A stretch of DNA of 64,000 nt from Phycisphaerae bacterium (GTDB lineage Bacteria; Planctomycetota; Phycisphaerae; UBA1845): positions 1 through 64,000 of the forward strand of contig JAGFJJ010000076.1 of NCBI GenBank assembly GCA_024102815.1, given 5' to 3'. The notes below the pieces were generated by a model, which saw only the letters and a program-made list of their open reading frames with translations, searched no databases and had not been told where the DNA came from. A program made the translations under genes and the position numbers. Position 1 is the first letter of the stretch. The number at the start of each line of letters is the position of its first letter. Below, one piece after another: positions 1 to 38,205 of the stretch.

Positions 1-1523
1 GGTTACACTCTGTCACGAACGGCCTCCGTGCCTCGGCATGATTGCGTTGGAGCAAACCCTATCATACCAGGTTCGAAGGCCTTCCTTATGCGCGAATCAA
101 CGTCAACTCATGAAATATCCGGGCTAATTCTTCCGCTCGAGCGGCCCTCGTCATCTCGAAGACGTGGACTGCAAGATGATTTATTGTTCCAAGTGCGTCA
201 CGACAACTTGCCCTTGGCACCCTTATGCGCCCATCCAGCTCTGCTCGAACCTCGATGAAAATCCTCTTGATTGCCTAAGTCGCGCATTGTGCGCAAGATG
301 CCCATCATCAAGCGGCCATGGAGTTCTCGTAACCCCTTATCGCTACTGAGGGGAATTAAACTTACATAACACGTCGAAGCGTTCATACAGAGGGCAACGG
401 GCAAGCCGTCCAACTGAGTCAAGGTCGCATACCACTCAGCCTGTGGCGACACGTATTCCTTTTCCAGAGCTCTGGGCGGAAGGGGGATATTAAAATGTGT
501 GATGAGCTTCCGTGTAGAACGTAGCGTGATCATGGCGCGCTACTTTCTGGATTCTCGATGATTCAGCATGGCCGCGAGGGGCAGAAGGTCCTCGACGGCA
601 CAGCAATGTACTACCCAAGTCTCTGGTTGTTGCCATGCGAAAATCGCTTCCGGTTGTGAGTCATGCTTGCCGCTCTTGCACCCAGTATGCCTTGCTTGCG
701 CGATTTTCTACTTCCCGCCGAACGTGGCATTCGACTGCGATTGAACGATGATCGACTCGGACTTGGCCAGCTGGTTCAAAACGTCGACTGCTCCGGCGCG
801 GTCGCGCTATTGACCGCGTTTCTCTTCGGAGGCAACGCACGGGCGTGCACTTCTCCGTCGTGCCGGACCACGCCAAGGCCGTCGCTCTCCCACTCCCGGG
901 CCTTCCGGCTTCGCCGGGCCTGATCATGCCAGTGCGGAAGAGGCATCGAATGCTGCTCGACGAGATTCTGGGGATGGACCGATTCTGGCTGCGCGGCTTT
1001 CCGGTCAATACCCTCCAACAATTGCTCTTCAAATGTCGGCTGGCTCATTGCCCGCCTGGGCTCAGCAACAACCTCCTGTCTCCGCCGTTTTCCTCCTTGG
1101 ATTGAATTCCACGGAAGGACGCCCAATTCGAAAAGAACCATGGCTTGCCAGGTTCGCCAAATCGGGATTATTCTCGTTCCGGTGACGAGCATGTTCGTCA
1201 GTCTTGCTGTATCGACACTATTCTTGGGTGGGCCGCCCGTGTGCAGGCTCGAGGCGTCCAGCAGGTACCGATCGAGAGCGGCCTGTTCATCGGTACCAAA
1301 AAAAGTAGAGTTTGCCGCGATTTCGCTTGCACCATTGACCCGTCGGGGGCAAGGTCAGACGAATCGACCTGCGCGCTTGAAGCGATTGTGCCTTTAGCAT
1401 GGGCCCATTGCCCACTCGCTGCTCGGTTGAGATTATGGCGGAAGCCGCAGTTGTAGACAGAGCTGTAGGTTGCCACGAAAACGAGGGATGGCATTAGCGT
1501 AAATCGTTTATTTTGATAAGTTT
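1..1523. other. gene-poor stretch, no confident CDS
   Basis: I see no protein I would defend here. Short open frames exist on both strands (for example minus 198-533 and minus 776-1192), but none shows a recognisable domain, a convincing ribosome binding site or a composition that separates it from its antisense frames. The stretch borders tRNA-Arg and may be decayed accessory DNA. A frameshifted gene cannot be excluded by eye. Confidence 0.5.
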
Positions 1524-1597
1524 GCGCCGGTAGCTCAGGTGGATAGAGCATCGGATTTCTAATCCGATGGTCGCAGGTTCGAGTCCTGCCCGGCGCG
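1524..1597 (+). tRNA. tRNA-Arg (anticodon TCT)
   Basis: The cloverleaf is complete. The acceptor stem GCGCCGG pairs with CCGGCGC, the D arm contains GCTC/GAGC, the anticodon stem TCGGA/TCCGA encloses the loop TTTCTAA with anticodon TCT at 1558-1560, and the T arm is GCAGG-TTCGAGT-CCTGC. The discriminator base is G at 1597 and CCA is not encoded. It reads AGA codons. Its 3' half is duplicated about 6 kb downstream (7539-7584), which suggests it once served as an integration site. Confidence 0.97.
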
Positions 1598-1607
1598 TTT
1601 TCGTAAA
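1562..1607 (+). repeat. candidate attL: tRNA-Arg 3' half plus 10 nt
   Basis: These 46 bases run from the 3' strand of the anticodon stem to ten bases past the tRNA end. They recur at 7539-7584 with 43 of 46 positions identical and no gaps. An intact tRNA at one end and only its 3' part at the other is the classic geometry left by tyrosine-recombinase elements inserted in tRNA genes. The element reading is inferred, because no integrase is visible. Confidence 0.6.
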
Positions 1608-2354
1608 GCGCTTTCCATGAGGCGTCCAGCGGCATTGGCATCTCAAGTCCCCCTACCTTGGCGTCCGGTAGCGAGGCGCCGGCGTTATTGTGGCGTCAGT
1701 CTTGGCCGCCAATCGGACCGCTATGGCCTCGATTGTCCAGCGAGCGCGGTCCACGTGCAGTTAGCTCGCCGTGACCTAAGACGCCGCGGTGGTCTTCATG
1801 TTCGAGTGGAGCATGAAGTTCGTTTTCCGTTAGCCGACTGGAGTGGGAGCACCGAACTTTGCGCGGTTAGGAACGGGGAGCAAGCGGTTGACTTCGCGCC
1901 CATCGAAAGCGCCGATCAAGCACACGTATCCAGTTCCTCGGATAACACCGCGAGCAACGGGCGGACGAGAGATGGCCATATCAATATTGACGCTGCTTCC
2001 GCCCACACCCGTGGTTTCGTATGTGCTGCGCGCCAGGTTGCAGCCGACGCCCGCCAGCCGGTATTTCGGCGACAAGTAGCAGCTCGCTGGCTGCGTGGGT
2101 GAGGGCCGTCGCAAGCCTCCTGTTCGCCACGAACACCCATCGCCTTGGCTGGAAGTGGCAGGCCCACGGGGCGATCGACGCGCCTGTTGGAGTCCCACGA
2201 AGATTCCCTGGGGATCGGACGCGGTGCAGTTCCAGAAGGACCTAACCGTCGGGCGGATTCCGTGTGGGTCCCCGTTTCACAATGCCAGCGTTGATCCTTG
2301 CGAGTTCGGAACACAAGCGGTTGACGTCGTTAACGGGCGCGCTTTCGGTTCGGT
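1608..2354. other. non-coding or decayed DNA between tRNA-Arg and the RHS gene
   Basis: This is where an island integrase would usually lie, but no integrase-like frame is present. All open frames are short and overlap on both strands. A stretch near 1885-1897 (AAGCGGTTGAC plus TCG-like bases) resembles one near 2316-2330, which could be a remnant of repeated RHS-tip DNA. The resemblance is too short to rely on. Confidence 0.4.
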
Positions 2355-5300
2355 CTAGTAGCCAAAGAAGCTTCTCAGACCTTCCCGTAAGCCACAGACC
2401 GGACCCAGTCGCGCTTCCCGCCTCGGGAGCAGTCCGCCCAGCGTTAGAAAATCGTCCAGATATGAGCGCGCCGGATTCCACCACTGCGAGCCGTACCAGG
2501 TGATGCCGGCCTCGGCCGGGTTGCTGGCCCCATATACGGATATGACATCACTCCACGACGGCAGGCCGTCCGTGCCGTAGTACTGCCCCCACGCAACGCC
2601 CGCGACGGTAAAGACCCCGGCAGCGGGGCTGTACGGGAAGGGCGCCGCATCGATCAGCCCACCGATGTGTCCGAGTCCTTCGCTAATCGCGATGTTGATG
2701 CCCGGTTGAACCACCCACTGGTCGGCGAAAGATCCGAAGGCGCCGGCCTCGGAAGCTGGGTCGAGCCCGAACGGATCGCGTGCGTTGACGGGGTTGTTGC
2801 CGGTATAAGCATACGGCGAGAGCGCCCACGCCACCGGCAGGGGATCACGTTGCAGGAAGCGTCCGGTACCTGGGTCGTAGTATCGCCGGCGGTAGTGATA
2901 CAAGCCGGTATCCACGTCGTATTCGCGACCCGCAAACAGGCGCCAGTCTCCCAGGGCTCCGTCCATCAGAACCGGCTCGCCAAATGCCTGGTAGCGATAG
3001 GTCGTCTGGCTTTCACCGTAAGCGTCCGTCACGCCGAGGATAGTTCCGAGAGGATCACGCAGGTAGAAATCGTTCTCATAGGAAGCGAAGCCGCCTTCCT
3101 TGAGGCCTTCGAGCATGTCGATGCCCTGTCCGAGCACGAATTGCCGGCGCAGTCCTCCCGCTGCATTGAACTCAGCAAGCACCTCGTCTCCCTCGTAGAC
3201 GTAGTACGTGACGTCTGCGCCGACGCGCTTCTCAATTCGCCGGCCGAGCGGATCGTACGCGAAGCTTACCACCGTCCCGTCCGGCAGCTCCGCGGAAACC
3301 AGCCGGTTCTCCGCGTCATACGTGTAGGAGGTCGTCTCACTCGTACCGCGATTTGTGCGCCGCGCGAGATTTCCCGATGCATCGTACGTGTAATCAAACG
3401 TGGGATCCCGATTCAGTCTGTTGGCCGCATCATAGGCATACTCGGCCTCGAGTCCCGCCACGAATCGATTACCCGCGCCATCGTAGGAATATTGCTCCGC
3501 CGGGTTGTCCGGCGTGGGGTGTGTGGCTTCAATCAGCCGGCCGGCATCATCATACGCGTACGTATGAACACCGTCGCGATCCTCCATACGCGTGCGATAG
3601 CCCGCTGGGCTGTACGTCCAACTCGCCGACTCGCTTCCGCCGGATCCGACCAGGGCGGATGATGTCATGCGGCCTGCGCCATCATGGGAAAATGTTGATT
3701 CGGTGCCGCTGTAAGACTCGTACCAACTTGCAGGTCTGCCGGCGGTGTCATATTCGGGTTGAAGCCAGAAGTACGCCCCGCCATACAAGGATGTTGGCCA
3801 CCACCCGCCGCTCGGGCTCCATTCGTATCCGAAATCAGAGACAGCCTCGCCCTTGGCAAGCGTAATCAATGTCTCACTGTAGTTGCTCGTGCGATACTCG
3901 TAGGAAACGGTAGCCGTCAGACCCGACGATGGAAAAATAGTCGTGACGTCTGTGACCAGATCGAACCAATTGTACGTGAATTCCAGTCGACAGCTCGGCG
4001 TCTCCATACTCGTGCACAGTCCCGTTTCCGGGTCATACGTATACGTGGCCGATTCACCCGCCGATTGTGTTCGCTGCGTCAGTTGGCCCGTGCTGTTGTA
4101 GGCAAAGCTGACCGAGGCGCCGGTTGGCTCGGTGCGACTGGTCAGGCGCCCGTTGGCATCGTACGCGTAAGTAGTCGCGTTACCCAGTGCATCAGTGATT
4201 GCCGCAGGTCGGTACATCGCATCGTAGTCGAATGTTGTTGTATTGCCGCGGCCATCCGTGATTGCGGTCATGACCGCCACGGCGCCGCCCAAGTCGATGT
4301 CGAGGCTTCCCCGCGCCGGCGCGTAGGAGAAACGGATTGTCTCACTGAGGCCGTTGGTGACCTGGTCGACAAGATTCATGACGTTGTAGCTGATGGACCA
4401 GTGTCGTCCGTCGGCATCCGTGACATCGCTGATGTTACCGTAGCTGTCGTAGCCGTAACGCCATACACCTCCCTCACCATCGGTAACGGTTTCCAGATTG
4501 CCATTGGCATCATAGGTCATTGTCGTGGATTCATCCCCGATCGTGACGCCTGTTCGCTGGCCGCGGTCGTTGTACGTGCATGAATAACGGCGCCCGCCGG
4601 GCAATGTCGCCTGCGTCAGGTTGCCGCGATCGTCGTAGTCCGCGGTCCACGCCCCGGCCATGCTGTCTTCGATCCGCGTCGGCAGATTCAAATCGTTGTA
4701 GGTTATGCCGAGTGTGTCGGGCCAGACGGGCGAGCGCCCGAAGCCGCTGGCGCTGGTTAGATTGCCGCTCGAATCGTAGGCATAATCCGACCGCTTGCCG
4801 CTCGCGGTTTGAACGGTCGTGATCTGGTCATTGCGATCGCGCCCCATGAGCAGCGTACGCCCCATGGGGTCAGTAATCGCCGTACGTGTTCCGAAGGAAT
4901 TCACCGCGAACGCGTATTCCTCTCCCGCCGGGTCGGTGTAGGACGCTTGCCCCTCGGTCGCGGCTACGTGCTGCGTGGAAGTGCCGTCCGGTCGATCAAC
5001 GCGTGTTACTGCGCCACTGGCGTCGAATGTGTAGGAAGTAACGTGGTCCCCGGCGTCGGTTTGCGCCGTCATGCGATGCAGACCGTCGTAGGAGAAACGC
5101 CGCGCCGTTCCGTCCGGGTTCTCAATGCGTTCCAGATCGCCGACGGCATTGACGGTGAATTGCGTCTGCCGGCCTGCCGGGTCGGTGATTGCGCGTAGCC
5201 TGTTCACTTCGTCGTAGGTCAACGTCGTGGCCCGGCCGACCGGATCGGTAATCGTCGTAATTCGGCCCGCGGAGTAGGCAAACGTCGTCGCATTGCCGTT

Positions 5301-6938
5301 GCGATCGGCAAGGCGCGTTTGGTGACCGTCGGCGTCAAACGACACCACCATCCCGTCCGGGTGAGACCACGTGTGCGAGCCATCAGGGTTTCGGACAAGC
5401 GTTGCGGAATCCCCCCGGCCGGCGGCATATCCCCCAACGCCCTGTTCCGTGTACCCGAAACGGCTTCCGTCGCCGCCGACGATCACTGCCTGATTCCCGC
5501 TCACGGTTAACCTATGCAGCCCAACGATACCCCAACCGTACCCGTAGGGATTGTTGATCAACGTGTCGTCCGGCTCCGGCAGCACTACGGACCCGGTAAA
5601 GGAACTTTCCATTCCCAGATACTCATCCGCCGTAACTCCGGTGTCTCCCTGCGCTGCACCGCCGAACTCGTTGACCGTCGCAAATGTCGTCTCGTATTCG
5701 TTCACCAGGGTCAGCGTGTACGGGTATGTGCCCGTCGGGAGCAACTGCCCCATGGGGTCCCGGCCGTCCCAGCGAAACGCGAACGTTGCCGGGCCGTCGA
5801 CCGGTTCGTAAGTGCGCTCCACGCGGTTGCCGCCGATCTCGGCGATCAGCCGCTGGCGCTCGGGCAGCAGAGTCCGGGTCAGACTGATATCGTAGGTGAG
5901 CTCGAGCACCACCCCTCCCGCGGGTACGGGCGAGTTGTACTGCAGGGCAACCGTACGCCGCCTTCCCAGCGTCGTATACGACGGTGTGAGGTGCTCCACG
6001 ATCAAGTGTCCGTCGCCGACATCGACCCTCGACCCAGTTGGAACACTTCCGCAGGGTTGGTTGTTCCGTTCGGCTCGCTGGTCGGATGTCGTATCTTCCG
6101 CGTCTCCCGGTTCGCCGCTCCCCGTCGGCGATGTTCGCCCCAGGTTGCAGTCCCGTGGCGAGAAGTGAACCACCTGGTACTCGACCCATTCCCCATCCGC
6201 CGTCACTGTACCCATCGATTCGTGCTCCCAGGCCAGGGTCGTTGGGTTGTATACGCCAACGGGGATGGGCGTACCGGGAGCGAAGCCGCGCGTGTTGCGC
6301 ATACGAACCGTGACGGGAGCATCAAATGTCTGGCCATCCGGCGTGAGATCGCAGGCGTACGTGAAGTGCGACAGTCCAGGCAGATCGTTTGGCAAGTGAC
6401 GCCCCTCGTCGTACCACGTAGCCCGCAATTCGGCGGTAGCACCGAGCGCACCAGCCGGCACCGTGAGTTCGATGGATCCGTCGGAGTTCATTCCGCTGCC
6501 GCCTTCCGGACCAATGAGGATTGCGTTCGGGTCGACAGGAGTCAGGAACATATCGGCGACTGCCGCCAGGCCGCCCTCTTCAACCGTTGCCCGACGCTGG
6601 GCGTAGGTGTAGCCGTCTCTGCGGGCGGTCAGTGCGACGTCGCCGCCCCCCGGCACTTCGACCACGAACCGTCCCTCGGCGTCGCTATCTCCACTAACGG
6701 ACATGTCGCTTACCGTGACGCGTACGCCGGGCAGCGCGCTGTTGGTGGAAGCGTCGAACACGCGTCCGTAGACACGGGCCGCCAAACCTCCCCCATTTAT
6801 CGGGGGATTTCCGTTGTCGTTACTTGCATTACCGTTGCCTCCGTCGTTGGACGGCCCTCCGCAACTGCCGGCAAACCCGGCCGCAAGCAGTATTGCCGTC
6901 ACCGTGAGAACGCATGCGATGCACGTTGGTCTATTCAT
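2355..6938 (-). CDS. RHS/YD-repeat lipoprotein with regulatory-like and ZU5-like N-terminal domains
   Basis: This is a 1,527-residue surface or secreted protein. An N-terminal hydrophobic segment ends in FAGSC, giving a probable lipidated Cys26, followed by a Gly/Asn-rich linker. A carboxypeptidase-regulatory-like beta domain (about 50-125) comes next, then a ZU5-like segment (PEGGSG, TVPAGALG; about 140-265). Dozens of YD repeats of the Y-D-x-x-G-R/N-L-T type fill about 500-1250. The conserved RHS core end follows (RYYDPGTGRFLQRDPL, then NPVNARDPFGLDP near 1380-1395). The last 130 or so residues form a Gly/Ala-rich tip with no nuclease or deaminase motif that I recognise. ATG at 6938 was preferred over an upstream frame because it begins the signal sequence. 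It may be a polymorphic-toxin carrier or a structural RHS protein. No immunity-like gene follows it, and it is the only clear gene between the two tRNA-Arg copies. Confidence 0.9.
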   Translation of the reverse strand: MNRPTCIACVLTVTAILLAAGFAGSCGGPSNDGGNGNASNDNGNPPINGGGLAARVYGRVFDASTNSALPGVRVTVSDMSVSGDSDAEGRFVVEVPGGGDVALTARRDGYTYAQRRATVEEGGLAAVADMFLTPVDPNAILIGPEGGSGMNSDGSIELTVPAGALGATAELRATWYDEGRHLPNDLPGLSHFTYACDLTPDGQTFDAPVTVRMRNTRGFAPGTPIPVGVYNPTTLAWEHESMGTVTADGEWVEYQVVHFSPRDCNLGRTSPTGSGEPGDAEDTTSDQRAERNNQPCGSVPTGSRVDVGDGHLIVEHLTPSYTTLGRRRTVALQYNSPVPAGGVVLELTYDISLTRTLLPERQRLIAEIGGNRVERTYEPVDGPATFAFRWDGRDPMGQLLPTGTYPYTLTLVNEYETTFATVNEFGGAAQGDTGVTADEYLGMESSFTGSVVLPEPDDTLINNPYGYGWGIVGLHRLTVSGNQAVIVGGDGSRFGYTEQGVGGYAAGRGDSATLVRNPDGSHTWSHPDGMVVSFDADGHQTRLADRNGNATTFAYSAGRITTITDPVGRATTLTYDEVNRLRAITDPAGRQTQFTVNAVGDLERIENPDGTARRFSYDGLHRMTAQTDAGDHVTSYTFDASGAVTRVDRPDGTSTQHVAATEGQASYTDPAGEEYAFAVNSFGTRTAITDPMGRTLLMGRDRNDQITTVQTASGKRSDYAYDSSGNLTSASGFGRSPVWPDTLGITYNDLNLPTRIEDSMAGAWTADYDDRGNLTQATLPGGRRYSCTYNDRGQRTGVTIGDESTTMTYDANGNLETVTDGEGGVWRYGYDSYGNISDVTDADGRHWSISYNVMNLVDQVTNGLSETIRFSYAPARGSLDIDLGGAVAVMTAITDGRGNTTTFDYDAMYRPAAITDALGNATTYAYDANGRLTSRTEPTGASVSFAYNSTGQLTQRTQSAGESATYTYDPETGLCTSMETPSCRLEFTYNWFDLVTDVTTIFPSSGLTATVSYEYRTSNYSETLITLAKGEAVSDFGYEWSPSGGWWPTSLYGGAYFWLQPEYDTAGRPASWYESYSGTESTFSHDGAGRMTSSALVGSGGSESASWTYSPAGYRTRMEDRDGVHTYAYDDAGRLIEATHPTPDNPAEQYSYDGAGNRFVAGLEAEYAYDAANRLNRDPTFDYTYDASGNLARRTNRGTSETTSYTYDAENRLVSAELPDGTVVSFAYDPLGRRIEKRVGADVTYYVYEGDEVLAEFNAAGGLRRQFVLGQGIDMLEGLKEGGFASYENDFYLRDPLGTILGVTDAYGESQTTYRYQAFGEPVLMDGALGDWRLFAGREYDVDTGLYHYRRRYYDPGTGRFLQRDPLPVAWALSPYAYTGNNPVNARDPFGLDPASEAGAFGSFADQWVVQPGINIAISEGLGHIGGLIDAAPFPYSPAAGVFTVAGVAWGQYYGTDGLPSWSDVISVYGASNPAEAGITWYGSQWWNPARSYLDDFLTLGGLLPRREARLGPVCGLREGLRSFFGY

Positions 6939-7538
6939 GGTCTGGCTCTCAAGTCGCAAGATGGTTCAGGATGTTCGACGGGAGTTCTTGTGCCGGGAGG
7001 CGGGGTGCGAAGGGTGCCCTGGGACTCCGGGACCGCCTCGTCGAGAGCACGTTCCCGAAAACACGGGAAGATGTCCGCCGAAGGGGTCCGCAAAACTCGC
7101 GACCGCGGCACTCCCTGCGTAGCCATTTGATTCGATTATAAACCAAACGAACTCGGCGTGCAGCATCGGCTGCCTTGCTCTGCCTCTCCGGGGCCCCTGG
7201 CAGCACGAAGTCCGGCCGGGTCCGACGGCTCAAAGCGTCGAAGGGCGCCCCATTGATACATTGTGGATGCTTAACAGTCTTGGCACGATAATAAATATGT
7301 TGAGATCCAATGTCGGCGAGCATAGGGCAAGGCTGGACCATGCCGTGTTGGGAATAAGCAGCCCGGCTCCCGTCAGCATCGAGTCACTTTGGCGAGGCCG
7401 CGGCGCCAGTCCAAGCGATACTTTTTCTATCATGCGTGCAGGAAGGGGTTTAAACCACACGTACCCCGCTTCTGGCGCCCCCAAGCGGTGATAACGCCTT
7501 TCTATTCAATGGCCTATGGCCGGTCGGCTGGATTCGTG
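6939..7538. other. intergenic stretch at the right edge of the putative island
   Basis: About 600 bases without a gene I can support. Open frames on both strands are short, and none shows a domain or a good start. The promoter of the minus-strand RHS gene should lie in its left part. The right part (about 7510-7538) shows weak continuing similarity to the tRNA-Arg anticodon arm, leading into the 46-base repeat. Confidence 0.5.
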
Positions 7539-7584
7539 ATCCGATGGTCGCAGGGTTGAGTCCTGCCCGGCGCGTATTCGTAAA
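7539..7584 (+). repeat. candidate attR: decayed tRNA-Arg 3' half
   Basis: Second copy of the 46-base segment at 1562-1607, with three mismatches. Two of them fall in the T loop, which changes TTCGAG to GTTGAG. Similarity continues weakly leftward through the anticodon arm (7530-7538), but there is no D arm or matching acceptor stem, so it cannot fold as a functional tRNA. It is either the right attachment site of a decayed element or the remnant of a duplicated tRNA-Arg gene. Confidence 0.6.
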
Positions 7585-7640: not shown

Positions 7641-9380
7641 TCAATCGATTTCGCCCGCGATGGTCTCGAATTCCTGCATTGCCGACCTGTCGCCCGAAAG
7701 GAGCATGTTCATGTCGGCTTGAAGAGACTGGAGGCCACAGCGAATGTACCGCGCCGCGACGAGCCGCTTGCGCTCGTTACGCTCCGCCTGGCGAAGGAAG
7801 AAGTGCCCGATGAGGACAGTGGCGGCGGCATCCACGAGCTTGCGGCCGTAGAGGTCCATGTAGTCCGTGCCCTGCTCCTTGACGAAGGTGATGCCCTCCA
7901 TGACGCGGGCACGTCCTTCGACGAGCCCCGCCTTGAACTCGTGCAGATCCTTGTCGAGGTACTCGCGCGATTCCAGTTCCTCGGCGAAGCGCTCAAAAGC
8001 TCCGCCGCATACGCCACGGACCGCCGCGACAATCTGAAGCTGGCTCGTGCCCTCATAGATGTTGGTGATTCGCGCGTCGCGCAGGTGACGCTCGACGGGA
8101 TAGTCCATCATGTATCCGGAGCCGCCAAGAACCTGGAGGGCGTCGTTGGCAACGCGCACGGACATCTCCGAAGCGTAGTATTTCGCCATGGGCGTGAGCA
8201 TGCCGTTGAGCCGCTTCCACACGCGGGCTTCGCTCTTGCGGCGCTTGAGCTCGTCGGCATCGGTCGGCGGATTTGTCTCCAGAACGCGCTGGTTGTTCAT
8301 CTCGAAGTCGCAGTAGCGACTGGCCTCATAGACCAAGGCTCGAGCGGCTTCCAGGGAGATGCGCATGTCCACGAGCATATCCGCCACGGCAGGCAGTCGC
8401 TCGATGGACACGCCGAACTGCTTTCGCGTGTGTGCGTATTTGCGCGCCACGCGATACGCGGCCTCGGCGATGCCCAGGGCCTGCGCCGCGACGCCGATCC
8501 GCGCACCGTTCATCAGGCTGAGCACGTAACGGATCAGCCCGAGCTGGCGTTCCCCGATCAGCTTGGCGGGCACGTCCTCGTAGACCAGTTCACAGGTGGG
8601 CGATCCGTGAAGGCCGAGTTTCTTCTCCAGGCGGCGGACCTTCAGCCGCGGGCCGCGCTCCGCGAGGAAAAGGCTCAGACCCCGGCCATCCTTGAGTTCC
8701 GGCTCGCTCCGCGCTAGTGTCAGAAGTACGTCACCGCAGCCGTTGGTGATGAAACGCTTGACGCCGTTGAGGCGCCATTGCCCGTCGGTGTCCTGCCAGG
8801 CACGCAAGCCCACGGCCTGGAGATCGCTGCCGGCATCGGGCTCGGTCAGGGCCATGGCCCCGGTAAGCTCTCCGCTGGAAAAGCGAGGCAGGTATTCATC
8901 CTTGATGGACGAATCCGCGAACGCGTTGATAGTTTCAGCGATACCCTGCAAGCCGAAGATGTTCATCAGCGAGGCATCGGCCCGGCTGATCATCTCGATG
9001 GCCATGGTGTAGACGAGGTTGGGGCAGTTCAATCCGCCGTACCGGCGCGGCAGCGTGAAGCCCATCAGGTCGGCCTGGCCCAGTGCCCGAAGGCTCTCCT
9101 GCATGCCACGGCTGAGCGTAACGGTGCCGTCCTCATTGAGCCGGTTGCCCTCGTGATCCACCGACTCCGCGAACGGAGCGATGGTGTTGGCCGCCACGTC
9201 GCCGACGATGGAGAGAATGCGGCGATAGTTATCGACGGCGTCCTCCGCATCCCGTGGCGATTCCTCGTGCACGTCCGGGCCGGTAGGGAAGCCGTCTTCC
9301 TGTACCGTTGCGAGGGCGCGCAGATCGAGATGTTCGAACAGGAAGCGGATGTCCTCGTTGTCGTCGAAGAAATTGGCCAT
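7641..9380 (-). CDS. acyl-CoA dehydrogenase, long (about 580 aa) form
   Basis: This flavoprotein would oxidise an acyl-CoA to the enoyl-CoA and pass electrons to ETF. The 579-residue chain has the N-terminal helical domain, the FAD-contact region with ALTEPDAGSD (about 200-210) and FITNGCGD, and a C-terminal helical domain with RKQFGVSIERLPAVADML, LGGSGYM and NIYEGTSQLQI, where Glu of YEGT is the usual catalytic base. A C-terminal extension of about 130 residues beyond the core matches the longer FadE-like subgroup. It lies 6 bases after etfA and forms an operon etfB-etfA-acd on the minus strand. The substrate chain length cannot be read from the sequence. Confidence 0.93.
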   Translation of the reverse strand: MANFFDDNEDIRFLFEHLDLRALATVQEDGFPTGPDVHEESPRDAEDAVDNYRRILSIVGDVAANTIAPFAESVDHEGNRLNEDGTVTLSRGMQESLRALGQADLMGFTLPRRYGGLNCPNLVYTMAIEMISRADASLMNIFGLQGIAETINAFADSSIKDEYLPRFSSGELTGAMALTEPDAGSDLQAVGLRAWQDTDGQWRLNGVKRFITNGCGDVLLTLARSEPELKDGRGLSLFLAERGPRLKVRRLEKKLGLHGSPTCELVYEDVPAKLIGERQLGLIRYVLSLMNGARIGVAAQALGIAEAAYRVARKYAHTRKQFGVSIERLPAVADMLVDMRISLEAARALVYEASRYCDFEMNNQRVLETNPPTDADELKRRKSEARVWKRLNGMLTPMAKYYASEMSVRVANDALQVLGGSGYMMDYPVERHLRDARITNIYEGTSQLQIVAAVRGVCGGAFERFAEELESREYLDKDLHEFKAGLVEGRARVMEGITFVKEQGTDYMDLYGRKLVDAAATVLIGHFFLRQAERNERKRLVAARYIRCGLQSLQADMNMLLSGDRSAMQEFETIAGEID

Positions 9381-9386
9381 GATCGT

Positions 9387-10418
9387 CTACGCCCGCTCCT
9401 TGATGGCCCGGATCATCACCGGAATCACTTTCCGCAAATCGCCCACGATGCCGTAATGAGCGACCGAGAAAATCGGCGCGTCCTTGTCCCAGTTGATGGC
9501 GATGATCTTGGCCGATTCCTCCATCCCGGCCCGATGCTGTACCGCACCGCTGATACCACATGCCACGTACAGCGCCGGGCGCACAGTCGTGCCCGTTTGC
9601 CCGACCTGGTGATCCTTGGGAACGAATCCTCCGTCCACGGCCGCGCGCGAAGCTCCCACGGCGCCGCCCATGACCCCCGCCAGGTCGTGTATGAGCTGAA
9701 AACTCTGCTTGCTGCCCACGCCCGCGCCGCCGGCGACGATGGTTCGGGCTGCCTTCAAGTTGACCTTGCGCGGCTCCCGGTGGCGCTCCACGATGCGCAC
9801 GGCGAGGTCGCTATCGGAGAACGCGACTTCCTCGTCAATGATCTCCCCTGTCCGCTCGGCATCCGGATCTTGGAGCCGCATCACGCCCTCGCGGACGGTC
9901 GCCATCTGCGGCCAGCGGTCGAAATTGATGATCGTTGCGATGATATTGCCGCCGAACGCGGGACGTATCTGGAGCAGCAGGTTCTTGTGCGTCTCCTTAG
10001 TCCGCGGGTCGACGTAATCGCCGAGATCCAGATCGGTGCAGTCCGCCGTCAGACCAGCCTTCAGGGCCGAAGCCACGCGCGGTGCCAGGTCACGCCCCAG
10101 CGGCGTCGCTCCAAAAAGGAGGATTTGCGGAACATGGCGCGCGGCCAACTCGATTACCACGCGGGCGTAGGGCAGCGTTCGGTAGTGCTCGAGCTCGGTG
10201 TGGTGGACGTGGTACACGCGATCGGCGCCGTGGGCGATCAGCCGGTAGGAGAGTTCGCGCACGTTCCAGCCAGGCAGAACCGCGGCCATCCGCGTGCCCA
10301 AACGGTCGGCCAGTTCCCGCGCCTTGCCACACAGCTCCAGGGTAACGTCGCTGAGACGCTCGTCCTCCTGCTCCGCGAACACCCACACTTCGCCCTTGCG
10401 ATTGACGGGAATCATCAA
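9387..10418 (-). CDS. etfA: electron transfer flavoprotein, alpha subunit
   Basis: EtfA, 343 residues, carries FAD and relays electrons from acyl-CoA dehydrogenases. The N-terminal alpha/beta domain (AERLAD-like KARELADRLGT near 30, DRVYHVHH near 65) is followed by the C-terminal FAD domain. That domain shows TIVAGGAGVGSKQSF, FVPKDHQVGQTGTTVRP and the conserved LYVACGISGAVQHRAGM and INWDKDAPIFSVAHYGIVGD motifs. It sits 44 bases after etfB and 6 bases before the acyl-CoA dehydrogenase on the same strand, so the three are very likely co-transcribed. Length is slightly above the usual 310-320. Confidence 0.95.
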   Translation of the reverse strand: MMIPVNRKGEVWVFAEQEDERLSDVTLELCGKARELADRLGTRMAAVLPGWNVRELSYRLIAHGADRVYHVHHTELEHYRTLPYARVVIELAARHVPQILLFGATPLGRDLAPRVASALKAGLTADCTDLDLGDYVDPRTKETHKNLLLQIRPAFGGNIIATIINFDRWPQMATVREGVMRLQDPDAERTGEIIDEEVAFSDSDLAVRIVERHREPRKVNLKAARTIVAGGAGVGSKQSFQLIHDLAGVMGGAVGASRAAVDGGFVPKDHQVGQTGTTVRPALYVACGISGAVQHRAGMEESAKIIAINWDKDAPIFSVAHYGIVGDLRKVIPVMIRAIKERA

Positions 10419-10462
10419 CGAACCCTCGCCGCGCTACCGCGGGCCGGTCAGCATGCCAGTAG

Positions 10463-11377
10463 TTATGACAGCGTGTGATCCACGATCAGCTCGTGGATCA
10501 TTTCGCGAACGCCTTCTTCCGTTGCGGGCACTTCCTTAAAGCCTTCCTTGGTCAGCACGATCGACTGCACCCGGTGAACTTTGGTCGGCGAGCCGGTCAC
10601 ACCGCACCATTGCAGGTCAGCCTGCACGTCATCAAGATCCCATTGACCGATCAGCAATCCGCGAGACTTCAACTGCTCAAGACGCCGTGCGGCCTCGCTT
10701 TCGCGAGCGTCCGCAGACCCCTTGGGCATCGCCAATTCCACTTCCCTGGCGACCTCGCCCCCTGTTCGCGCGTGCTTGAAGCGCATCATCCGGCGCGCGG
10801 CTGGGGGGCGGGCGCGATTGGCGGAATCCAGCACCGTGACCAGCAACGGAAGCCGGGATTCCAGAACTTCCCATCCGTTCCCCACGTTCCTTCGCAGTCG
10901 AGCCCGGCCGCTGTCGAGTTCAACAACCCGTTCGAAGTACGTTACCTGTGGAATGCCCAGTTTCTCAGCGAGTTGCGGACCCACCTGGGCCGTGTCGCCG
11001 TCGATGGCCTGTCGACCGCAAAAGACGAAATCGAACCGGCCCAGCCGTGCAACGGCCCGGCTGAGGATGTAGCTTGTAGCCAGCGTATCGCTGCCTGCCG
11101 CCCGGCGGTCATTAATCAGAATGGCTCGATCCGCCCCTCGATAGAGACACTCGCGGAGGACTTCGGCCGCGGCGAGCGGGCCCATCGTCACGACGGAGAC
11201 CGTCCCCCCGAAGCGTTCGCGAACGTCGAGCGCCGCTTCCAGGGCGTGCAGGTCTTCGGGATTGAACACCGTCGGCAGGGCTGAACGGTTAACGGTTCCG
11301 TCGGCTTTCATCGCGTCGACGGTGATGTTGGCCGTGTCCGGAACCTGTTTGACGCAAACGATGCTGTGGTATGTCAA
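10463..11377 (-). CDS. etfB: electron transfer flavoprotein, beta subunit
   Basis: EtfB, 304 residues, binds AMP and partners EtfA. Diagnostic segments are CVKQVPDT at the start, the NPEDLHALEAAL region, SVVTMGP, a DTLATSYILSRAV helix, and FCGRQAIDGDTAQVGPQLAE. It is the first gene of the minus-strand etfB-etfA-acyl-CoA dehydrogenase unit, and the AGGGGGAG-rich leader just upstream supports the ATG. It is longer than the usual 250-260 because of a C-terminal tail after residue 250. Whether the pair is electron-bifurcating cannot be decided by eye. Confidence 0.95.
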   Translation of the reverse strand: MTYHSIVCVKQVPDTANITVDAMKADGTVNRSALPTVFNPEDLHALEAALDVRERFGGTVSVVTMGPLAAAEVLRECLYRGADRAILINDRRAAGSDTLATSYILSRAVARLGRFDFVFCGRQAIDGDTAQVGPQLAEKLGIPQVTYFERVVELDSGRARLRRNVGNGWEVLESRLPLLVTVLDSANRARPPAARRMMRFKHARTGGEVAREVELAMPKGSADARESEAARRLEQLKSRGLLIGQWDLDDVQADLQWCGVTGSPTKVHRVQSIVLTKEGFKEVPATEEGVREMIHELIVDHTLS

Positions 11378-31937: not shown

Positions 31938-32597
31938 CTACCTACTCAACACCCCTGTCGCCCACGTCGACGGGTCCACATACCAGTTGAGATCGTCGCC
32001 CACCGTCAGGAACTGCTGGCCGAAGTCACCATCTTCGAGGATGTAGTAGAACCCGATACGCGGATGCTCGACAGGGTCGAACCCGCTCAGGGCCTCGGCC
32101 GGGATGAATCCCTCCAGTGTGTAGCCGGTCTTCGATGTCTTCGCTGCCACGCTGATGACACCCTCGGCGACCGGCGGAGCGTCCTCCCGGGCGCGCTGAA
32201 TACGATGACTCCCCGCGGCTGGGTCCTTGCCCCGCGATCCGCCACCTGTGGGCAGGAAGTAGAACTGCTGGCAGTAGCGCGTCGCCCGCCGGTTGGAGCG
32301 GGCATCGCGCATGTCCGTGCAGATGCGCAGATTGTCCCCGCTCCAGAACGTCGCCGGATCGCAGCGCAGCGGCTTCTTCTTCCCCTCCACGCGACACGCC
32401 ACGGCCATGCCCGTCTCGTTCCAGCAGGCCCAAACCTCGGCGAATTCGGCCTTTCCGTCCAGCTCGCCGAAGTGCGGCAGAAGCTCCGCGTCGCTCCAGC
32501 CGGACACGTCGCCGTCGACACGCGGCAGCTTCGCCCGGTAGCGCAGCGGGAACTCGAAGTCGAACAGAAAGCGATTGGGCACCAGTAACTGGGTCAT
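31938..32597 (-). CDS. CBM9/DOMON-like protein coupled to uvrA
   Basis: A 219-residue cytosolic-looking protein with no signal peptide. It shows the CBM9/DOMON-like beta-sandwich pattern PRVDGDVSGWSDAELLPHFGEL, then VWACWNETGMAVACRVEGKKK, the characteristic FWSGDNLRICTDMRDA segment and a C-terminal TGYTLEGFIPAEALSGFDPVEHPRIGFYYIL. Such modules normally bind sugars or heme-like ligands in secreted proteins, so a cytosolic copy tied to a repair gene is unexpected. The ATG at 32597 overlaps the uvrA TGA (ATGA), so it follows uvrA directly. Role in repair is not known. Confidence 0.75.
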   Translation of the reverse strand: MTQLLVPNRFLFDFEFPLRYRAKLPRVDGDVSGWSDAELLPHFGELDGKAEFAEVWACWNETGMAVACRVEGKKKPLRCDPATFWSGDNLRICTDMRDARSNRRATRYCQQFYFLPTGGGSRGKDPAAGSHRIQRAREDAPPVAEGVISVAAKTSKTGYTLEGFIPAEALSGFDPVEHPRIGFYYILEDGDFGQQFLTVGDDLNWYVDPSTWATGVLSR

Positions 32598-35500
32598 GCC
32601 GAGCGCAGCCTTTCGTCCTCGCGCGGAGCGGTGCACACGCGCCACACGTCCAGAAGCTGTTTCGTGTCGATCTGGTTGAGCGAGCGCACCCAGAACGTCA
32701 CGCGATCGTAGTCCGGACTCCGCTTGACCTCCGCATCCTCCCCCAGCGACATGATCCGCACCGGCGTCAGCACTTTCGCCGGCGCTCGCAGCTCGACGCG
32801 AATCCCCCGGGCCATGTTGGTCACAAGTTTGCCGATCGGCTTGGATTCATTGGGCAGCGCGAACGAACCCGAGACCTTGCTGTTCCAATCGAAGACCAAG
32901 GTCCGCTCGAGCGCCTTGAAACACCCCACGAGGGCCATTAGCAGCGACGGCGGCCACTTGGCACGCGTCTTGGGGTTGATCGACTTCTGCGACAAATGCC
33001 AGTTGATGCCCTCCGTCTTCCACGGCTGACCGGCGTCGGGGTCTTCGCGGAGCTTGCGCACGTGCGAGAGATACGCCCCGGCCGCGCGGCGCAGGAATGC
33101 TCCGACTGTCTTTCTGTTCACGTCCTGGAAATCACGTAGAAACAATCGCACGTCCTGCCAGCCGATGATCCCCCGCCGCAGTCGCGCCCGGTCCCACTGT
33201 CCGTAGATGGGCAGGTCGCGGCGCTCGTCGAGCGTCTTGATTCCCAGCTTGCTGACGTCCGATGCCGTAAACGTGTCATTCGGAACTCGGATCGTGATGT
33301 CAATCAGGTCGCGTCCGCTGGTGCGAAGATGTGCGAACCAGGGTACGCTGCCCGGCGCCTTGATCTCAACTCGGGTGCGATGGTTCCAGTCCGTCGGCGC
33401 AAATCCCTCCACTGACTCCATCGTCTCCACGAGCCAGACCAGCAGCGCCGGATCCCACTGCACCGGCTCGCCCTTGTGATCGACGTGATCGGCCGTGTGC
33501 CACGTCCGCCCGTCGCGATCCCAGGGCATACGCACGTCGTCGCCGAGATTGAGCGGTCTCGCGGAGTCCATCGACTCCGCCGCCAGTTGGTTTGCATCGA
33601 AAATCTCCCGCGCCGCAACCGGACCGGCTTCGAGAACCGGTGCCAGCGCCTTGCCCGTGTGCGACGCCTTCGTCGCCGCGATCCGCTCCGGCGCTCCCGC
33701 GACCACGATCGTGCCGCCGGCGTCGCCCGCTTCCGGACCGAGATCAATCACCCAGTCGGCCGTCTTGATCACGTCAAGATTGTGCTCGATGCAGATGACC
33801 GTGTTGCCCAGATCGACCAGTCGGTGCAGCACGCGGAGCAGCTTCTTCAAGTCGTCGAAATGCAATCCCGTCGTGGGCTCATCGAGAATGTACAACGTCT
33901 TCCCGGTCGAAGGCCGTCCGAGTTCACCCGCCAGTTTCACGCGTTGCGCCTCGCCGCCGGAAAGCGTCGGCGCCGCCTGCCCGAGTTGCACGTACCCGAG
34001 TCCAACGTCATCGAGCGTTTGCAGCATCCGCCGCAGGCGCGGCACGCTCTCGAACAGTTCCAGCGCCTCGTTGACGCGCATATCCAGGACGTCGGCGATG
34101 CTCCGCCCGCGATATTGCGCCTCCAGCGTCTCCGTCGTGTAGCGCTTCCCGCGACACACTTCGCACTCCACCCACACGTCGGGCAGGAAGTGCATCTCGA
34201 TGCATTTCTGCCCCATGCCCTCGCACGCTTCGCAGCGCCCGCCGGGACGATTGAAGCTGAAGCGGTTGGGTGTATACCCGCGAATGCGGCTGACCGGCAG
34301 CTTCGCGAAGAGTTCGCGGATCAGGTCGAAAACGCCCGTGTAAGTGGCGGGGTTGCTCGACGGGCTGTTTCCGATCGGCGATTGATCGACGTTGATCACC
34401 TTGTCGATGTGCTCGAGCCCGCTGATTCCCTCGTGCCCGCCGGGGACCAGTCGGGCGCGGTGGATCCGCGCCGCCGCTGCATTGTAGAGAATGTCCGAAA
34501 CGAGCGTGCTCTTGCCGCTGCCGGAGACGCCGGTCACACAAGTGAACCGCCCCAATGGGAAGGGAACATCGATTTCCTGAAGATTGTTCTCGCGGGCACC
34601 GCGCACGGTAATCCACTGCACCGCTTCATCACCCGCCGCCGTACGTTTCCCCTTCCCCGTCTTCCGCTTGCGCGATGTGGTGCCCTTGGATTCGGCCGTT
34701 GCCGTATCCGCTTCATCCAATGCCACCACGTCCGTTCGCGGCTCGGCCGGAACCACCCGCCGATTCGATGGAACCGCGATCGACTCCCGCGCCGACAGGT
34801 ACGCCCCGGTCAGCGACTTGCGATCGCGACGCAACTTTCTCGGCGAACCATTCGCGGTGATCTCTCCTCCGAACGTCCCGGCGCCGGGACCGAAGTCCAG
34901 CACGTGATCCGCCGAGTCGATCACCTCGCGGTCGTGCTCCACCAGCACCAGCGTGTTGCCCAGGTCGCGGAGCCTGCCCAACGCACGAACCAGCCGGGCG
35001 TTGTCGCGGGGATGAAGTCCGATGGTCGGTTCGTCAAGTACGTACAGCACGCCGGTGAGCCCCGTGCCGATCTGTGCGGCGAGCTGGATCCGCTGCGACT
35101 CACCACCCGACAGCGTTGCGGCCGAGCGGTGCAGCGACAGGTATTCGAGCCCAACGTCTACCAGGAAGCGCAGCCGCGACGTGATCTCATGCAGGAGCTC
35201 GCCGGCAACGTGCCGCTCGCGCGCCGAGAGGCGAAGTCCTTCGATCCAGCGGAGTGCCTCGCCCAGCGACATCGAGCAGACGTTCAGAAGCGTGCGCTCC
35301 GCCAGTCGAACGGCCGCGGCATCGGGACGAAGTCGACTTCCACGACACGCTTCGCACGGAACCTCGGTAACGAAATCTTCCAGCCGCTTGCGATATTGCC
35401 AACTGATCTGCGTCGCTCGGGCAATCGCAGGGAAGAACCCGCGCCAGCGAAAGCGAACGGCACTCCCGTTGCCCGCAGCGGAACCATCCGTGCGACCGGA

Positions 35501-37909
35501 ACCTCGTCGTCTCTTGTTTCCTTCTTCGGTGGGCGGCTGCACGCTGACCCACGCATCACCCGTGCCGTGCAGCACGGCCAGCCGGTGATTCTCCGCCATC
35601 CGGTTCCACGGCGTGTGCAGGTCGAAGCCCGCATGATCGGCCAGCGCGCCGACCAGCGCGTGCAGCTTCGTCCCCGGCGTGAGCGCGCCCCACGCACCAA
35701 TCGCTCCCGCGGCGATGGACTGCGTCGGATGCACGACAATCGTCGAGGCGCTGGCTCCCTGCTGCACCCCCAGCCCCTCGCACGACTCACACCATCCCAG
35801 TGCATTATTGAAAGAGAAGTGGTGGGGCGTCAGTTCCTCGAAGCTGGTGCCACAGGTTTGGCACGATCGATGCTGCGAAAACCGCAATTCGCCTCCCGCG
35901 CGATCGTCGGACTCGAGTACGCCGGCGATCATCACGCCCTGACCCACGGCCAGAGCCTGCTCCACGCTGTCCGCCAGCCGCGATGCCTGCTTCTTCCGCA
36001 CGACGACCCGATCGATAACCAGCTCCACGCGATGCTTTCGACGGCGATCGATCTCGATGGACTGATCGAGCTCGTGTATCGCGCCGTCGATGCGCGCCCG
36101 CGCATATCCGTTGGCCCGCTCGCGGCGCAGCAACGCCTCGTACGTCTCCTGCCCCGTGGGTTCCACCGGGGCGAGCAGCAGCACCTTCGTCCCTTCGCCC
36201 AGGCCCAGCACACGCTCCACGATCTCGTCGGCCGTCTGCGTGCCCACGGGTTTCTCGCACCGTGGGCAGTGTGGAATACCGATCCGCGCCCAGAGAATCC
36301 GCAGGTAGTCGTAGATTTCGGTGATCGTTCCCACCGTCGAACGCGGCGACTTGGTCGCGGTTTTCTGCTCGATGCAGATCGCGGGGGAGAGCCCATGAAC
36401 GTGTTCCACCTTCGGCGGCTGCATCCGCCCGAGGAACTGCCGTGCGTACGCGCTCAGCGACTCGACATAGCGCCGCTGACCTTCGGCATAGAGTGTGTCC
36501 ACCGCCAGACTGGTCTTCCCGCTCCCACTCGGCCCGCAGCACACCGTCGTCTTCCCGCGTGGAATCTCCACGGTGATGTCTTTCAGATTGTGCTGCTTCG
36601 CCCCGACGACAGTGATTGCATCGCCGCGAATCTTCTGAGCGGCGGGCTTCAGCCCGCGCGAGTCTTCAACGGAGTCTGGCCCACCGCGCATCTTCTGAGC
36701 CGCAGGCTTCAGCCTGCGCGAACTCATGTCTTCAAACATCTCCCGCAGCGCCGCACCCGTATGCGACTTCTTCGACTTCGCCACCTGCTCCGGCGTGCCT
36801 TCCGCCACGATCCGCCCGCCGCCCGCGCCGCCCTCCGGACCGAGATCGATAATCCAGTCGGCCGTCTTGATCACATCGAGGTTGTGCTCGATCACCAAAA
36901 CGGTATTTCCCGCATCAACAAACCCGTGCAGCACGGCCAGCAGCTTGCGAATATCCTCGAAGTGCAACCCCGTCGTCGGCTCGTCGAGCACGTACAGCGT
37001 TCTTCCCGTGGACCGCTTCACCAGTTCCCGCGCCAGCTTGATCCGTTGCGCCTCCCCACCCGAGAGCGTCGTCGACGACTGCCCCAGCTTCACGTAGTCC
37101 AGCCCCACGTCGTGCAGCGTGTGCAGCATGGCCTCGATCTTCGGCACGTTGGCGAAATGCTGGAGCGCCTCCTGCACGTCCATGTCCAGCACGTCCGCGA
37201 TGTTCTTGCCCTTGAACAGAATCTGGAGCGTCTCGCGGTTGAAGCGTCTGCCCTCGCACACCGGGCACGTCACCCACACGTCGGCCAGGAAGTCCATCGA
37301 CAGCCGGTTCGAGCCGTTCCCCTCGCACGCCTCGCACCGCCCGCCGCCGTCCGCCCCGCTGGGCACGTTGAAGCTGAACCGCCCCGGCTTGTACCCCCGC
37401 ACCCGCGAGTCCGGCAGCTTCGCGTACAATGCCCGGATCTCGTCAAACACCTTGATGTACGTCGCCGGGTTCGATCGCGGCGTCCGTCCGATCGGCGTCT
37501 GGTCAATGTCGATGATCTTGTCGAGATGCTCGTCCCCCTCGATTCGCTCGTGCGCACCGGGCTGGGCCGTCGTGGCCCCGTTCAGTTCGCGGGAGAGCGC
37601 CTCGCGCAGAATGTCGTTCACCAGCGAGCTCTTCCCGCTGCCCGACACCCCCGTTACGCAGACGAATCGCCCCAGCGGAATCGACGCCGTGATGTTCCGC
37701 AGGTTGTTCTGCCGCGCCCCGACCACGCTCAACCAGCGCAGACCGTCCCCGTCCCCCGTGCCCGCTGCGCGTTCCGCCGCGATCATCCCTGCCGCGGGGA
37801 TTGCCCCAGCCGTGGACGCCGACCGTTGTCCCCGGACCGCCTTCTCCCTTTTTTTCTTCTTCCGCTTCCTCACGGACCGGATTGTAGTCAGAGTGCTCGA
37901 GGGGTGCAT
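32594..37909 (-). CDS. uvrA: oversized UvrA with three ABC cassettes and a C-terminal extension
   Basis: UvrA recognises DNA lesions for UvrBC excision. This one is about 1,771 residues, against about 940 in E. coli. Order: a basic N-terminus; an extra cassette resembling the UvrA C-terminal half (Walker A GVSGSGKSS near 87, zinc pair CEAC/CPVC, LSGGEAQRIKLA, LDEPTTGLH; to about 410); a linker made of two repeats; a complete UvrA (Walker A GPSGSGKTS near 456, zinc motifs CPRC and CQTC/CESC, LSGGESQRIQLA, then Walker A GVSGSGKST near 1125, CEAC/CEVC, LSGGEAQRVKLA). Finally there is an extension of about 340 residues (about 1430-1771) that I cannot assign. ATG 37909 was chosen; a GTG at 38011 overlaps a palindrome and looks unlikely. 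It is coupled to the CBM9-like gene. Confidence 0.9.
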   Translation of the reverse strand: MHPSSTLTTIRSVRKRKKKKREKAVRGQRSASTAGAIPAAGMIAAERAAGTGDGDGLRWLSVVGARQNNLRNITASIPLGRFVCVTGVSGSGKSSLVNDILREALSRELNGATTAQPGAHERIEGDEHLDKIIDIDQTPIGRTPRSNPATYIKVFDEIRALYAKLPDSRVRGYKPGRFSFNVPSGADGGGRCEACEGNGSNRLSMDFLADVWVTCPVCEGRRFNRETLQILFKGKNIADVLDMDVQEALQHFANVPKIEAMLHTLHDVGLDYVKLGQSSTTLSGGEAQRIKLARELVKRSTGRTLYVLDEPTTGLHFEDIRKLLAVLHGFVDAGNTVLVIEHNLDVIKTADWIIDLGPEGGAGGGRIVAEGTPEQVAKSKKSHTGAALREMFEDMSSRRLKPAAQKMRGGPDSVEDSRGLKPAAQKIRGDAITVVGAKQHNLKDITVEIPRGKTTVCCGPSGSGKTSLAVDTLYAEGQRRYVESLSAYARQFLGRMQPPKVEHVHGLSPAICIEQKTATKSPRSTVGTITEIYDYLRILWARIGIPHCPRCEKPVGTQTADEIVERVLGLGEGTKVLLLAPVEPTGQETYEALLRRERANGYARARIDGAIHELDQSIEIDRRRKHRVELVIDRVVVRKKQASRLADSVEQALAVGQGVMIAGVLESDDRAGGELRFSQHRSCQTCGTSFEELTPHHFSFNNALGWCESCEGLGVQQGASASTIVVHPTQSIAAGAIGAWGALTPGTKLHALVGALADHAGFDLHTPWNRMAENHRLAVLHGTGDAWVSVQPPTEEGNKRRRGSGRTDGSAAGNGSAVRFRWRGFFPAIARATQISWQYRKRLEDFVTEVPCEACRGSRLRPDAAAVRLAERTLLNVCSMSLGEALRWIEGLRLSARERHVAGELLHEITSRLRFLVDVGLEYLSLHRSAATLSGGESQRIQLAAQIGTGLTGVLYVLDEPTIGLHPRDNARLVRALGRLRDLGNTLVLVEHDREVIDSADHVLDFGPGAGTFGGEITANGSPRKLRRDRKSLTGAYLSARESIAVPSNRRVVPAEPRTDVVALDEADTATAESKGTTSRKRKTGKGKRTAAGDEAVQWITVRGARENNLQEIDVPFPLGRFTCVTGVSGSGKSTLVSDILYNAAAARIHRARLVPGGHEGISGLEHIDKVINVDQSPIGNSPSSNPATYTGVFDLIRELFAKLPVSRIRGYTPNRFSFNRPGGRCEACEGMGQKCIEMHFLPDVWVECEVCRGKRYTTETLEAQYRGRSIADVLDMRVNEALELFESVPRLRRMLQTLDDVGLGYVQLGQAAPTLSGGEAQRVKLAGELGRPSTGKTLYILDEPTTGLHFDDLKKLLRVLHRLVDLGNTVICIEHNLDVIKTADWVIDLGPEAGDAGGTIVVAGAPERIAATKASHTGKALAPVLEAGPVAAREIFDANQLAAESMDSARPLNLGDDVRMPWDRDGRTWHTADHVDHKGEPVQWDPALLVWLVETMESVEGFAPTDWNHRTRVEIKAPGSVPWFAHLRTSGRDLIDITIRVPNDTFTASDVSKLGIKTLDERRDLPIYGQWDRARLRRGIIGWQDVRLFLRDFQDVNRKTVGAFLRRAAGAYLSHVRKLREDPDAGQPWKTEGINWHLSQKSINPKTRAKWPPSLLMALVGCFKALERTLVFDWNSKVSGSFALPNESKPIGKLVTNMARGIRVELRAPAKVLTPVRIMSLGEDAEVKRSPDYDRVTFWVRSLNQIDTKQLLDVWRVCTAPREDERLRSA
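36625..36744 (-). repeat. two 60-bp TTCA-loop hairpin repeats inside uvrA
   Basis: Two copies of a unit, starting at 36625 and 36685 (period exactly 60), each carry CTTCTGAGC and then a perfect hairpin with loop TTCA: GCGGGC-TTCA-GCCCGC at 36642-36657 and CGCAGGC-TTCA-GCCTGCG at 36701-36718. As 60 is divisible by three they stay in frame and encode RLKPAAQKMRG and GLKPAAQKIRG, the linker between the extra cassette and the full UvrA. They look like an intergenic palindromic element captured by the gene. Confidence 0.8.
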
Positions 37910-37920
37910 CTCGATGCACC
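37903..37920. promoter_or_regulatory. dyad over the uvrA start codon
   Basis: GGTGCAT-CTCG-ATGCACC is a perfect seven-base inverted repeat. The chosen uvrA ATG lies in one arm. CTCTCGATGCACC occurs again at about 37944-37956. It could form an mRNA hairpin that masks the start, or be a protein site. Confidence 0.4.
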
Positions 37921-37994
37921 GATCTGGGAATCCAGGCGGGCTACCTCTCGATGCACCAACAAAGGGTCTTCGCCCGGAGGGCGCGCGTTCGTTG

Positions 37995-38014
37995 CCAGTG
38001 ACTTTAGTCACTGG
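37995..38014. promoter_or_regulatory. palindrome upstream of uvrA
   Basis: CCAGTGACTTTAGTCACTGG has perfect nine-base arms around two T residues, 86 bases upstream of the chosen uvrA start. Position and symmetry suit a dimeric repressor, and a damage-response regulator is an obvious candidate for uvrA. A repeated palindrome unrelated to regulation is equally possible. Confidence 0.4.
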
Positions 38015-38205
38015 TGGGCGGTCGCGTACCGTCGATCTTGATGCCCCAAGCGGAAACGTGACAATGTCCGATCACGCCACGGCCCGTTCGATGGAAGGCC
38101 GACGCTGCGGCGCATTCCTTCGCTGCAGTAGCTCATTGCCGTCGGCCATGGAACTTCCGGAGGTGAGCAAGTAGTAATGCCGGGGCAAGACTACTCAGGC
38201 GCTTC

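Follow-up and report, generated by a model that had tools for sequence, protein, structure and literature searches.

How did the 3′ half of one tRNA gene come to lie twice in the same orientation, some 6 kb apart, around a single large gene? We looked into this question in the first 64,000 nucleotides (nt), hereafter the window, of a 283-kb contig (C76) from the 5.09-Mb draft genome of a Phycisphaerae bacterium, where an intact tRNA-Arg(TCT) gene is followed by a gene for an RHS/YD-repeat lipoprotein and then by a second, partial copy of the tRNA gene. The tRNA gene was very probably the chromosomal attachment site (attB) of an element that integrated on its 3′ side and then decayed, leaving a tRNA fragment and the RHS gene behind; that the RHS gene was the cargo of this 6-kb segment is likely but unproven. 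The features that carry the argument are as follows.

1523 to 1598, plus strand: intact tRNA-Arg(TCT) gene, the proposed integration target (ARAGORN; Rfam RF00005, 72.3 bits).
1553 to 1607, plus strand: proximal copy of the attachment (att) repeat, running from the tRNA anticodon stem to 9 nt beyond the tRNA 3′ end (repeat finder; edge comparison).
7530 to 7584, plus strand: distal copy of the att repeat, the 3′ part of the tRNA in displaced form and with mutations (49/55 to the proximal copy).

The repeat finder showed that the two copies form a 55-nt direct repeat, 49/55 identical and 5977 bp apart, the core of which is the ungapped 46-nt match (1562 to 1607 against 7539 to 7584, 43/46) that an earlier note, made from the sequence alone, had described. 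A chance origin is excluded, because the distal copy matches with an E value of 4 × 10−14 against the whole genome. Outside the repeat, the two sites agree at 8/30 positions in the tRNA 5′ half, at 14/60 upstream of the tRNA and at 19/60 downstream of the block. The fragment begins at tRNA position 31, and its sharp edge in the 5′ half means that the distal copy is not what decay has left of a complete tRNA gene, so the earlier statement that only the 3′ part is present there held. Within the tRNA body every mismatch sits in the distal copy, an assignment that follows from the identity of the proximal copy with the tRNA-Arg of other genera. The locus has three marks of a 3′-fragment tRNA element, namely, an intact tRNA at one end, a same-strand 3′ fragment at the other and a crossover in the anticodon loop, which is a known crossover position for tRNA-targeting integrases (PMC4383910; PMC8371274). 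The repeat pair is the displaced-fragment signature of insertion by a tyrosine integrase.

We then compared, in fetched genome stretches, about 40 tRNA-Arg loci of the family and order to which the genome belongs. In eight genomes (G019, G004, G018, G035, G014, G016, G002 and G020) an integrase, intact or broken, immediately follows tRNA-Arg on its 3′ side, and a ninth integrase locus is at a second, 5′-truncated tRNA-Arg copy in G041. In G004 a displaced 3′ fragment of tRNA-Arg begins at position 31, 11.2 kb away from the intact gene; others begin at position 30 in G019 (on another contig) and at position 35 in G057 (43/43 identical, 1.25 kb from the intact copy; loci L063/L130), with a weaker fragment covering positions 40 to 78 in G011; the start base is the same, within one, in the window, G004 and G019. 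Conversely, 5′ halves of tRNA-Arg stop at positions 40 to 45 in G002, G010, G029, G040 and G053, and the fragment starts and half ends, taken together, confine the crossover to the anticodon stem-loop. These results indicate that tRNA-Arg is an insertion hotspot in related Phycisphaerae. Site-specific integration into the tRNA gene, as the earlier note had proposed, is therefore well supported by the sharp-edged fragment, by its shared start base and by the integrases that neighbor the same gene in relatives. At one of these loci (L073, on contig C220 of G019; 9938 to 10506) another convergent integrase remnant directly follows the 3′ tRNA fragment, an arrangement that suggests elements docked in tandem.

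What lies between the two copies in the window is summarized below.

2355 to 6938, minus strand: intact RHS/YD-repeat lipoprotein gene, 1527 amino acids (aa) from the ATG at 6938 (open reading frame [ORF]; RHS_repeat, 4 × 10−81; Rhs_assc_core, 1.5 × 10−19).
1608 to 2354, no strand: interval without a recognizable gene or integrase relic (translated and profile searches).
6939 to 7529, no strand: interval without a recognizable gene or integrase relic (translated and profile searches).

The RHS gene occupies the greater part of the interval and is its sole recognizable gene; the ORF and the domain matches agree with the earlier note on this point. The protein has a lipoprotein-like N terminus, read from the sequence as a hydrophobic stretch that ends in AGSC, then a CarboxypepD_reg domain, 15 matches to the RHS repeat and the Rhs-associated core (TIGR03696, 1.5 × 10−19), and the presence of both YD repeats and the core places it among the RHS/YD-repeat proteins. 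No comparable relative was found in 60 related genomes at a cutoff of E = 1 × 10−50, just two partial matches (41 to 44% over about 300 to 360 residues), and the idea that RHS relatives adjoin tRNA genes was rejected, both partial matches being without a tRNA within 1.5 kb. Searches of phage and plasmid collections returned matches limited to the tRNA or to generic YD repeats. Integrase matches between or at the repeats proved to be merely tRNA antisense: some integrase frames continue antisense through the tRNA gene (L072, 12634 to 14235; L131, 6751 to 7830), and the tRNA read backwards encodes RRAGLEPATxGLEIRCSI, which accounts for false integrase matches at other tRNA-Arg genes.

On the favored explanation, an element whose own attachment site (attP) contained the 3′ part of the tRNA would have recombined inside the anticodon loop of tRNA-Arg(TCT), rebuilding the full tRNA at 1523 to 1598, the 3′ half of which was presumably resupplied by the element, and moving the original 3′ part to the far end at 7530 to 7584. 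The distal copy, being functionless, would have accumulated mutations; the integrase would have been lost, or may always have been supplied in trans; and the gene for the RHS surface lipoprotein would be the last recognizable one between the att copies. The repeat with its edges, the hotspot in relatives and the lack of a detectable integrase between the copies are observations; which element this was, that the RHS gene arrived with it and that the element is now immobile are inferences. Beyond the distal copy lies the following gene.

7641 to 9380, minus strand: acyl-CoA dehydrogenase gene, the chromosomal flank outside the element (ORF and profile match).

Several observations weigh against this explanation. 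First, 3/6 mismatches of the distal copy fall within the 7-nt anticodon loop (window 7535 to 7541, TTTCTAA versus TTCGTGA), and since the loop is the presumed strand-exchange overlap, in which attB and attP are expected to match, the explanation must suppose that these bases decayed after the insertion. Second, no integrase, intact or broken, was found in 1608 to 7529 with tblastn of about 20 integrases, profiles and stop-masked frames; the translated search for relics in the intervals flanking the RHS gene, which the earlier note had asked for, thus came back empty, and the segment is classed as a decayed remainder rather than as an active island for this reason. Third, the G+C content of the RHS gene is 0.618 against a local value of 0.63 and so gives no support for a foreign origin. 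Finally, synteny does not display an empty site. The close relatives of the acyl-CoA dehydrogenase are from Phycisphaerae/Planctomycetota metagenome-assembled genomes; in relatives, 24 of its loci are free of tRNA genes to a distance of 1.5 kb and the longer ones throughout, and the gene that follows the dehydrogenase varies, with almost no common downstream gene. No tRNA was found beside this gene at the family level, and no congeneric genome was found among the relatives. None of the relatives is near enough to reveal an empty site, so the RHS gene is a presumed cargo. Of the decayed element with RHS cargo that the earlier note proposed, the integration is well supported and the RHS gene is lineage-specific between the att copies; its role as cargo is plausible, and a second element, described below, had been missed.

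The strongest rival, which we regard as possible although clearly less probable, accepts the integration and disputes the cargo: the genes of the element would have been deleted, and the RHS gene would be a later arrival in a neutral landing zone or a host gene that a rearrangement brought to this place. Its host-like composition fits this rival, as does the lack of a mobility gene beside it, and the other 3′-side segments at tRNA-Arg carry unrelated genes (names judged from the sequences), azoreductase-like in G057, beta-helix-like in G011 and sigma-factor-like plus kinase-like in G004. A late arrival is harder to reconcile with a gene that takes up most of the interval and has no comparable form in relatives, and no second boundary repeat was found inside the interval to mark a separate insertion.

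The integration of a 3′-side element remains our preferred reading of the interval; upstream of the tRNA, the locus holds traces of something else.

1193 to 1473, minus strand: frameshifted N-terminal relic of a tyrosine integrase from a 5′-side element, reading away from the tRNA (67% identity to G002; protein pieces).
1450 to 1468, plus strand: putative arm-type sites for the integrase of the 5′-side element, in the form of a decayed direct repeat, GTTGTAG-ACAGA-GCTGTAG (gap-repeat comparison).

The earlier note saw no integrase, which is true of the interval itself, but a relic is present immediately beyond it, 5′ of the tRNA. Positions 1197 to 1473 are 67% identical (E = 2 × 10−28) to the stretch immediately upstream of the G002 tRNA-Arg. 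The relic pieces SIRLTLPPTGQWCKRNRGKLYFF and FFGTDEQAALDRYLL, encoded in minus frames with a frameshift, match both the G057 integrase that is divergent from tRNA-Arg and the broken G002 integrase, and the G002 piece, used as a query in a whole-genome search, matched the window at 1193 to 1324 and 1296 to 1376. Intact relatives of the relic have a Phage_integrase domain. The relic lies 5′ of the tRNA and is divergent from it, as expected of a 5′-side element, and together with the repeats it indicates that the locus took more than one element. Separately from the 3′-side event, an element of a different type once docked 5′ of this tRNA gene; its remains are the broken integrase and the decayed repeats, putatively of arm type.

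We searched 114 genomes of the order for this integrase clade (L186 to L208, L149 to L159 and the window relic) and obtained 23 matches, of which 22/23 adjoin a tRNA gene, with the integrase start facing the tRNA in 22/22. Sixteen of the 23 are divergent from the tRNA 5′ end (Arg-ACG, Arg-CCT, Arg-TCT, Ser-GCT, Met, Thr-TGT and Phe), and six more distant members of the family face the tRNA 3′ end (Pro, Val, Ala and Gly; L197, L198, L199, L201, L202 and L203), so that one integrase family seems to have changed the side of the tRNA that it uses. A regular repeat, e.g., GGTTGTCGTCAAGGTTGTCG, stands between integrase and tRNA in 11/16 divergent members; direct repeats of GGTTGTCGTC are found in the gap in most of these, and GTTGTAGACAGAGCTGTAG, at 1450 to 1468, is a decayed counterpart in the window. 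The paired repeat was not seen at ten tRNA-Arg genes that lack such an integrase and served as controls, 2/10 of which show a single half-repeat, and we infer that the gap repeats are arm-type integrase sites. This 5′-side placement of a planctomycete integrase clade was not met in a small literature search, and we do not claim it as unreported. The layout of the G040 locus (L075, 2341 to 18642) is different from that of this clade: a tRNA-Arg 5′ half is found 16 kb upstream of the intact gene, and it is this half, not the intact tRNA, that an open integrase frame adjoins.

Elements on the 5′ side are predicted to leave a tRNA 5′ half at their far end, and this was found in two well-assembled genomes. 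In G038 the 5′ half of tRNA-Thr lies 28.4 kb upstream (39/39 bases) and stops in the anticodon loop; in G081 that of tRNA-Arg(CCT) lies 43.9 kb upstream (39/39), on the same strand and without a full tRNA there. For tRNA-Arg of G002 and tRNA-Ser of G079, the 5′ half is on another contig. The other clade members showed no distal 5′ half in the fetched stretches, many of which end at contig ends, and the window's own draft genome has no second tRNA-Arg 5′ half, its contig ending 1.5 kb upstream of the tRNA. Within these 1.5 kb, an ORF on the minus strand (198 to 533) matches DUF6933 (Pfam, E = 1 × 10−9), with weak matches in at most 3/100 related genomes, its own counted; it is possibly cargo of the 5′-side element.

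The relic raises a further rival, in which the 3′-side insertion was made in trans by the 5′-side integrase and the RHS segment never had an integrase of its own. Besides the relic itself, a crossover in the anticodon loop common to both element types is consistent with this, and G057 combines a 5′-side integrase with a 1.25-kb 3′ segment that holds one azoreductase-like ORF and no integrase. Only G057, however, resembles the window in this arrangement; nine other 5′-side integrase loci lack 3′ fragments on the 3′ side, and 3′-side elements elsewhere carry their own integrases, all of which makes the proposal improbable. We consider equally improbable its extension, in which the tRNA is a fixed two-sided dock where an integrase of the 5′ clade, retained beside the tRNA, inserts integrase-less cargo 3′ in trans (the RHS gene in the window, a 1.25-kb gene in G057) and tRNA 3′ fragments act as integron-like cassette ends; an integron-like array, whose cassettes would have repeated sites at their bounds on one side of an integrase, found no support, 3′ fragments being absent at nine further loci of the 5′-side clade. 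A tandem duplication of the tRNA gene, with the second copy decayed and the RHS gene in between by chance, accounts for the common orientation of the copies but is highly implausible and was rejected, since the distal copy is without the tRNA 5′ half and its edge coincides, to within one base, with that of the G004 and G019 fragments.

Elsewhere in the window, two long ORFs overlap on opposite strands at 32594 to 38041 (1805 aa, minus; 1521 aa, plus).

The locus is a two-sided tRNA hotspot, and islands with 3′ fragments are already well known: the Islander set of 3919 islands consists of 3760 with a 3′ fragment of the tRNA gene (tDNA) and 159 with a 5′ fragment (PMC4383910). Like the former, the window segment has an intact tRNA at one end, a direct displaced 3′ fragment at the other and an anticodon-loop crossover; unlike them, it is without an integrase, its fragment is mutated, and it spans about 6 kb with one recognizable gene, so that the integrase filter of Islander would drop it. 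Tycheposons, tRNA-bordered cargo elements of 4 to 200 kb with a tyrosine recombinase (as described in PMC10872708), share the tRNA border and the variable cargo, whereas no recombinase was found inside the window segment. The element type of the upstream relic resembles the 5′-fragment islands in leaving 5′ halves (in G002, G038, G081 and G079), although the window retains the relic alone and its 5′ half was not found. Fragments of the tDNA 5′ end also come from pTN3-like integrases in archaea (PMC8371274), from which the present case differs in being a planctomycete clade, which lies 5′ of the tRNA and divergent from it in 16/23 matches, most of them having direct repeats in common between integrase and tRNA.

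The RHS relic suggests how a single surface gene may remain after the decay of a tRNA island. In the 5′-side mode, which is the minority in Islander, the element replaces the promoter and the 5′ half of the tRNA gene, and expression of the tRNA therefore depends on mobile DNA.
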